Below, piece after piece: positions 15,386 to 63,494 of a DNA stretch of 64,000 nt. The stretch is from Candidatus Bathyarchaeota archaeon (GTDB lineage Archaea > Thermoproteota > CALKCG01 > B24 > DRYS01), in assembly GCA_018396535.1 (NCBI GenBank), contig JAGTQC010000005.1:94523-158522 (forward strand), given 5' to 3'. The notes below the pieces were generated by a model. It searched no databases, was not told where the DNA came from, and saw nothing but the letters and a program-made list of their open reading frames with translations. Position 1 is the first letter of the stretch. Each line of letters begins with the position of its first letter. The translations under genes were made by a program, and so were the position numbers.

Positions 15386-15664
15386 ATGAAAGTACCCACC
15401 TCTATAAACACCTACTGCCCTAAATGTAGAGCGAAGACTGAGCATAAGGTATCGATATATAGACGTGGTAAGGAGAGCTCTCTCAGAAAGGGTGCTAGGC
15501 ATCATGAATGGCAACTGCATGGGTATGGTGGACAGAAATTCCCTGAGCAGAGGAAGCATGCTAAAACTACTAAGAAACAGGTTATACTATTAAGTTGTGT
15601 TAAATGTGGTTATACTCTTCATCGTTTAGGTGTAAGACTTAGTAAGCTAGAGGTTAAACATTAG
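15386..15664 (+). CDS. rpl44e: Large ribosomal subunit protein eL44 (L44e)
   Basis: A 92-residue zinc-binding ribosomal protein. The start KVPTSINTYCPKCRAKTEHKV carries the first CxxC and the conserved EH. A basic middle (RRGKESSLRKGARHHEWQLHGYGG) includes the usual GYGGQKFPEQRK segment. A second CxxC lies in SCVKCGYTLHR. Length is normal. The start follows GGAGGT almost directly and a TATA-like TTATAT about 30 bases upstream, so the transcript may be nearly leaderless. Only a small Lrp-type gene follows; the usual eS27 partner is not adjacent. Confidence 0.95.
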   Translation: MKVPTSINTYCPKCRAKTEHKVSIYRRGKESSLRKGARHHEWQLHGYGGQKFPEQRKHAKTTKKQVILLSCVKCGYTLHRLGVRLSKLEVKH

Positions 15665-15710: not shown

Positions 15711-15964
15711 ATGCCGAAAGCATTCGTCCTCATAAATGCTGAGATAGGGTATGAGAGTGAAGTATTGAAATCTTTGAAGAAGATAGAGAATGTGAAGGAA
15801 GCATATATGGTGTATGGTATATATGATATAATCGTTAGGGTAGAAAGGGGTTGTTAAACCCCCTATAAGCCGATAGTATGGAGAAGCTTAAGGAGATAGT
15901 TACGTGGAAGATAAGGAGATTAGAGCATGTTCAGAGTACTCTAACGATGATAGTCATAGAGTAG
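15711..15964 (+). CDS. Stand-alone Lrp/AsnC RAM-domain protein, interrupted by a candidate 23-nt intron
   Basis: Two frames together encode a 76-residue stand-alone ligand-binding (RAM) domain of the Lrp/AsnC family, without a DNA-binding domain. Exon 1 is 15711-15845 (45 codons, MPKAFVLINAEIG through YDIIVRVE). Exon 2 is 15869-15964 (ADSMEKLKEIVTWKIRRLEHVQ through TMIVIE). Read continuously, exon 1 runs into a TAA three codons past the junction. Removing 23 bases restores the normal family sequence RVE-ADSMEKL with no lost or added residue. The 23 bases fold into a bulge-helix-bulge (separate entry). Both exons show well-conserved family sequence, so this does not look like an old pseudogene. 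Alternatives are a recent insertion or a sequencing error. Stand-alone RAM proteins form oligomers and are thought to sense amino acids or partner with full-length Lrp proteins. Confidence 0.85.
15846..15868 (+). other. Candidate bulge-helix-bulge pre-mRNA intron, 23 nt
   Basis: The fold as RNA: exon bases 15840-15843 (GUAG) pair with intron bases 15863-15866 (CUAU) as a 4-bp central helix (one G-U). The 5' bulge is AAA (15844-15846). The intron helix is GGGGUU (15847-15852) with AACCCC (15857-15862) around a GUUA loop. The 3' bulge is AAG (15867-15869). A short outer helix is 15838-15839 (GG) with 15870-15871 (CC). Cutting each 3-base bulge between its second and third base, the usual archaeal splicing-endonuclease positions, removes exactly 15846-15868. 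This is the same 23 bases required by the protein frame. The weak point is the 2-bp outer helix. Confidence 0.78.
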
Positions 15965-62626: not shown

Positions 62627-62675
62627 ACGAGAATAAGCAATATATACAGCGAACTAAAGATTTCATTATAGAGGG

Positions 62676-63494
62676 TTGCCTAGTAGAAGTGGAGGGTTCA
62701 GATCCAGGCTTACCGCGTTGATAGCATCCTGGCTTCTATCCCTACCCACCATATCCTCCACATTCTGGCTTCCTATGTGGATAGCATTATCGATAATATT
62801 CCCCACCATATTCAACTATTTTCCAGAATCACCAGCTCCGATTAGGATAGATTGGATACCGCAATGGGTTTTCCGTATACTATACATACCATGGATACCC
62901 TTCATGATAATCCCAGGTTTAGAATGGCTTACAGAATACCTTCTACTACCATGGCTATGGACTAATACACCGCTCATGATGATCATAGCATCTGTAAGGC
63001 CTATATTAGCGATAGGAGGCTTCACATTCTTCATCGGAAGCTTAACCCAGCTACTAGTCTATAAGCGTAGAGGGGTTAAACTAGTAACCTCAGGATTCTA
63101 CGGTATAGTACGTCATCCACAGTATCTAGGGATATTCATATGGACATTTGGACATATACTCTACGCGCTCCCCCTATTCCTAAGACCAGCAGATCTTATA
63201 GCATGGATAACCCTCGTATACACATACATACTACTAGCTAGAAGCGAGGAGGCTGATCTGATGAAGATACTCGGTATAGAGTATGCTAGGTATAGGGAAT
63301 CTACACCATTCATAATACCATACACACCAGCTAGGATATCTAAACCCATATCCATGCTAATCGAACGCTATACACCTAAAGCTAGATGGGCTAGGATAAC
63401 CCTAAAAATCATGATATACTTATCGGTTATAGCTACCATAGCATACCTATCATATGGTAGAACATACTGCTTCAAGGATAAACCCCCAATCTAA
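62676..63494 (+). CDS. ICMT/PEMT-like membrane methyltransferase
   Basis: A 272-residue membrane protein with about six hydrophobic helices. Its C-terminal half has LVTSGFYGIVRHPQYLGIFIWTFG followed by ARSEEADLMKILGIEYARYRESTPFIIP. This is the isoprenylcysteine carboxyl-methyltransferase/phospholipid methyltransferase signature (GxYxxVRHPxYxG, then EE..L...G..Y..Y). The start is TTG. The natural acceptor in archaea is unknown (lipid or protein). It follows the phosphodiesterase-like gene in the same direction. Confidence 0.85.
   Translation: MPSRSGGFRSRLTALIASWLLSLPTISSTFWLPMWIALSIIFPTIFNYFPESPAPIRIDWIPQWVFRILYIPWIPFMIIPGLEWLTEYLLLPWLWTNTPLMMIIASVRPILAIGGFTFFIGSLTQLLVYKRRGVKLVTSGFYGIVRHPQYLGIFIWTFGHILYALPLFLRPADLIAWITLVYTYILLARSEEADLMKILGIEYARYRESTPFIIPYTPARISKPISMLIERYTPKARWARITLKIMIYLSVIATIAYLSYGRTYCFKDKPPI

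Follow-up and report, generated by a model that had tools for sequence, protein, structure and literature searches.

The interrupted RAM-domain gene

The window, by which we mean the whole 64,000-nt stretch of DNA that was analyzed, is part of an archaeal genome of 1.41 Mb in 14 contigs. Starting at position 15711 is an ORF of 48 codons that ends at a TAA (15855-15857). The Pfam profile PF01037 matches the gene in two halves that lie in separate frames, one at 15729-15845 (profile positions 2-41) and the other at 15866-15961 (profile positions 41-72), and the two half-matches meet at profile position 41. When nucleotides 15846-15868 are removed, the reading frame continues as MPKAFVLINAEIGYESEVLKSLKKIENVKEAYMVYGIYDIIVRVEADSMEKLKEIVTWKIRRLEHVQSTLTMIVIE and then TAG, giving a protein of 76 residues that scores 58.8 bits against PF01037, compared with 25.9 bits for exon 1 alone. 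The sequence-only reading had claimed that deletion of these 23 nt joins two halves of a RAM domain, and the frame is indeed restored exactly. The coordinates of the gene, its parts and its upstream neighbor are given in Table 1.

Table 1. Features of the interrupted RAM-domain gene and its upstream neighbor, in window coordinates. Slashes within bulges mark the predicted cleavage points.
Feature	Position	Strand	Basis
Ribosomal protein L44e gene, upstream neighbor	15386..15664	+	PF00935; synteny in other site A genomes
Exon 1 of stand-alone RAM gene, codons 1-45	15711..15845	+	PF01037 half-match; orthologues
Outer helix 5' side GG, paired with CC 15870-15871	15838..15839	+	Fold; relatives
Central helix (4 bp) 5' side GUAG, exonic	15840..15843	+	GUAG/CUAU in family f1, GUGG/CCAC in family f2
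5' bulge AA/A, predicted cleavage after 15845	15844..15846	+	BHB geometry
Putative 23-nt BHB intron (site A), AGGGGTTGTTAAACCCCCTATAA	15846..15868	+	Removal gives 76-aa protein; single BHB solution; six genomes
Inner stem 5' arm GGGGUU	15847..15852	+	Fold
In-frame TAA, unspliced mRNA would give 48-aa product	15855..15857	+	Same offset in 6/6 site A genomes
Inner stem 3' arm AACCCC	15857..15862	+	Fold; loop is GUUA
Central helix 3' side CUAU, intronic	15863..15866	+	Pairs with GUAG
3' bulge AA/G, predicted cleavage after 15868	15867..15869	+	BHB geometry
Exon 2, codons 46-76 plus TAG	15869..15964	+	Pfam half-match, other frame; purifying selection

The predicted product of splicing is a stand-alone RAM (Lrp/AsnC ligand-binding) protein, in which PF01037 extends over residues 7-76 and a Pfam search of the 76 aa found no HTH or other DNA-binding domain. 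Its closest solved structure is 2zbc (E 4e-22, 80.6 bits, residues 1-76). This protein (83 aa) and those of entries 2cvi and 2e1a are stand-alone RAM proteins of known structure, to which the spliced product can be aligned from end to end; they serve here as protein relatives only. The window's genome has more than ten further RAM-domain matches, none of them interrupted by a stop codon, and the intron is seen in this RAM gene only.

Structure of the 23-nt insert

The junctions of the insert lie within two 3-nt bulges on opposite strands with a 4-bp helix between them, the arrangement of a bulge-helix-bulge (BHB) motif. The canonical cuts in bulges AAA and AAG, the 4-bp helix and the 6-bp intron stem described in the sequence-only reading were all found as stated, and RNAfold recovers the bulge together with the central helix and the inner stem. 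A further claim, that protein and fold evidence agree to the base, was upheld in part: the frame-restoring cut does coincide with the BHB, but the protein evidence alone leaves three placements of the 23-nt deletion that are equivalent by sequence (15844-66, 15845-67 and 15846-68). The last of these was chosen because only that placement satisfies the BHB cleavage rule. Across 19 orthologous introns, exactly one BHB solution was found for each.

In this window, a 4-bp helix together with an inner stem of 6 bp or more occurs, at a fixed length of 23 nt, at a rate of 3.9e-5 per position, or 7.8e-6 per position when an outer helix of 2 bp or more is also demanded, which makes a chance BHB at the junction improbable. 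The folding energy is unremarkable (z = -1.5), and the evidence lies not in this but in the coincidence of the BHB with the frame-restoring junction and in its conservation across genomes. Counting against the BHB-intron reading is a short outer helix, of 2-3 bp at this position (site A) and a single base pair at site B, one of two further sites described below. At 23 nt, and at 21-39 nt over all sites, the inserts fall inside the 16-44 bp range of known archaeal mRNA introns (PMC2738675). A group I or group II intron was rejected, as 23 nt is far too short for either ribozyme core. A scan of the whole window for BHB motifs that restore a frame gave 86 raw candidates on the forward strand and 71 on the reverse, those listed being mostly joins between neighboring genes or antisense frames, and no second intron stood out on its own merits. 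The two tRNA genes found within the window were both reported as lacking an intron.

Conservation of the insert at site A

The gene is present in six of the seven genomes examined from the order to which the window's genome belongs, and all six carry an insert at the identical site, with lengths of 23, 23, 22, 22, 21 and 21 nt in two families. The L44e gene lies directly upstream in four of the relatives (G001, G002, G004 and G006), as it does in the window. One of the insert-bearing contigs, from a member of the same genus, is public as JANXEK010000001.1 and labelled Bathyarchaeota SKYB62. The central helix, GUAG/CUAU in one family (f1) and GUGG/CCAC in the other (f2), shows an apparent compensatory change, and pair 4 of the inner stem varies as G-C, U-A or C-G among the site A genomes. 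Double changes are clear at the third pair of the central helix and at this inner pair, among few independent sequences. A formal covariation analysis of the six closely related rows gave a positive but weak score, reached by 37 of 500 shuffles, the rows being few and MAFFT gaps falling inside the stem.

Purifying selection acts strongly on the two exons, in each of which dN is much lower than dS. For exon 2, dN was 0.014 and dS 0.34 between the window's genome (G000) and G001, and dN was 0 and dS 0.36 between G002 and G005. Alignment with orthologues had been proposed in the sequence-only reading as a check on the insert, and this comparison places it at the same position in six genomes.

Inserts at two further sites of the same gene

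Two further BHB introns are predicted at other codons of the same gene in family f11, which belongs to a Caldarchaeales-type order that also includes Caldarchaeaceae and Calditenuaceae. Site B follows codon 12 in six genomes of genus g12, where the inserts are 25 or 27 nt long (GAGAU/ACCCC...CUCAAA/AGG, slashes as in Table 1) and the central helix is UGAG/CUCA or CGAG/CUCG. Site C follows codon 60 in eight genomes, seven of them in genera g76, g90 and g103 and the eighth being G145, with inserts (GAGGAU/AGCG...CCUCAG/ACGG) of 29-39 nt where measured. Splicing at site B or C would restore proteins of 77-79 aa. The RAM gene of genus g40, also in family f11, is without an intron. Outside both intron-bearing groups, orthologues in the phylum sample were uninterrupted among the matches listed, which reached E ~1e-25, a depth at which genomes with a match strongly split by an intron could escape, and in 30 more genomes that were rechecked.

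In a protein tree, the carriers of each site fall to one side of a branch. Because sites A, B and C lie many codons apart, the RAM gene appears to have gained BHB introns in at least three separate insertions, after codons 12, 45 and 60.

Splicing enzymes and the cbf5 intron

The window's genome has two paralogues of the splicing endonuclease EndA, one with the catalytic triad and the other without its His, and the lack of this residue in one paralogue indicates the alpha/beta heterotetramer type. Enzymes of this type cut relaxed BHB motifs outside tRNA (PMC6379350). A gene for the RtcB ligase is also present, and the host encodes both an endonuclease of one of the types (alpha/beta or epsilon) capable of cutting a BHB outside tRNA and a ligase to join the exons. 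As a positive control, the cbf5 gene of the same genome (contig C1, around 62,660-63,350, outside the window) was found to carry a 34-nt BHB intron inside the codon for the catalytic Asp, which is the published position (PMC2738675). The same cbf5 intron was resolved in the other six members of the order and in nine genomes beyond it. The site A intron is distinct from this one, since its host is the RAM gene and cbf5 has its own, separate intron.

We consider it very probable that 15846-15868 is a genuine archaeal pre-mRNA intron of the BHB class, spliced by EndA and RtcB. A BHB intron was also the interpretation of the sequence-only reading, and it is strengthened by the conservation in six genomes, the apparent compensatory helix change, purifying selection, matching enzymes and the genome's own cbf5 intron. 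In the mechanism envisaged, the transcript would fold so that the four exon 1 bases just before the bulge form a helix with the 3' portion of the intron, leaving two 3-nt bulges, each of which would be cut after its second base by the two-gene alpha/beta endonuclease. RtcB would then join the exons to give an mRNA for the 76-residue stand-alone RAM-domain protein. Unspliced mRNA would yield only a fragment of 48 residues, as had been claimed earlier, via the in-frame stop within the intron.

Stop codons within the introns

A stop codon in the frame of exon 1 is present in 20 of 20 RAM introns at the three sites, including those with lengths that are multiples of three, and among site C introns the type and position of the stop vary. 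By resampling, the expected frequency of such a stop is 0.04-0.36 per intron, and for three independent insertions the joint expectation, using the largest value for each site, is about 0.02 (0.23 x 0.36 x 0.23). The excess of intronic stops over three independent insertions is suggestive. In cbf5, all four of the multiple-of-three introns resolved have a stop, and several other cbf5 introns lack one. The simplest reading is that the intronic stop would protect against translation of unspliced message.

The intron may instead be regulatory, with inefficient or conditional splicing acting together with the stop to lower expression of the gene, perhaps as feedback on an amino-acid-sensing RAM protein. 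A switch of this sort was suggested in the sequence-only reading, and for it the stop found in each RAM intron is the sole hint. A negative regulatory role has been proposed for the cbf5 intron (PMC2738675), and the presence of the stop in every RAM intron, against the expectation for each and its absence from several cbf5 introns, points the same way. However, only three independent insertions are involved, the excess is modest, and the stop may simply guard against an aberrant protein, making a regulatory role rather unlikely on present evidence. Similarly tentative is the broader idea that the RAM gene is a recurrent target of BHB introns (at least three insertions) in which selected stops might let splicing gate an amino-acid-responsive regulator.

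Alternative explanations for the insert

Elements of programmed translational bypassing also consist of a short hairpin gap that encloses a stop codon. The insert, with its hairpin and internal stop, resembles such an element, and the ribosome could in principle jump the hairpin while the RNA remains unspliced, as in phage T4 gene 60. Against this, the take-off and landing codons differ (GAA vs GCC), and the conserved bulge size, 4-bp helix and cut positions are not needed for bypassing. The same geometry is, moreover, common to the three RAM sites and the cbf5 gene of the same genome, and splicing of cbf5 is established in relatives (PMC2738675). Bypassing is for these reasons highly improbable. 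We give just as little credence to a decayed pseudogene with a small insertion. A stop interrupts the reading frame, with a frameshift in addition in four out of six site A genomes, but the insertion occupies one base position across two families, dN is far below dS in exon 2 as well as exon 1, the spliced protein retains full domain similarity, and the BHB is preserved even though the length of the insert varies. A sequencing or assembly error, for which it could be said only that the assemblies are draft and metagenome-like, is refuted by the finding of inserts that differ in sequence and length, and that lie in synteny with rpl44e, in six separate genomes including that of JANXEK010000001.1, and its likelihood is negligible.

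Comparison with known archaeal introns

The established case of an archaeal mRNA intron is that of cbf5 (archaeal dyskerin) (PMC2738675; PMC7714728), and a study from 2020 described it as the only additional BHB intron then reported in archaeal mRNA (PMC7714728). This agrees with the earlier statement that archaeal mRNA introns are few, with cbf5 the best established. It had also been suggested that none is known in an Lrp-type regulator, and our search of the open-access literature found no BHB intron in an Lrp/AsnC-type gene. Like the putative RAM introns, the cbf5 introns of Desulfurococcales and Sulfolobales are short (16-44 bp), lie in coding sequence and have a 4-bp central helix; they have been attributed to heterotetrameric EndA, some keep the frame, and possible negative regulation has been proposed (PMC2738675). 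They occupy one position, whereas those of the RAM gene occupy three, in different lineages. Archaeal pre-tRNA introns share the BHB geometry and the presumed enzymes (EndA and RtcB), but the host of the RAM intron is an mRNA without a tRNA body, in which the frame must be restored. Another BHB in mRNA that is processed by EndA is that of HVO_1309 in Haloferax volcanii (PMC7714728), although it lies in the 5' UTR and the RAM intron in coding sequence.

On the sequence evidence, a known kind of intron, the cbf5 type, has a new host in the RAM gene, where, surprisingly, it occupies three positions. Among archaeal protein genes, essentially only cbf5 had established introns before, and the addition of another gene, interrupted at three codons in different lineages, would point to repeated gain of mRNA introns in Archaea. 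The RAM introns would offer a natural series for studying how such introns arise, and their intronic stops make the control of expression by splicing a testable question. Genes of this kind are overlooked by gene callers, which would here call a stub of 48 aa.

The origin of the cbf5 intron was assigned to Desulfurococcales and Sulfolobales (PMC2738675), and we find cbf5 introns throughout the order of the window's genome and in several other families of Thermoproteota, well past those two groups. The cbf5 introns of G006 and G004 are 16 nt long, with a 4-bp central helix, an inner stem of 1 bp and an outer helix of 8 bp, and are relaxed hBH-type motifs, while that of G003, at 76 nt, is above the published range of 16-44 bp.
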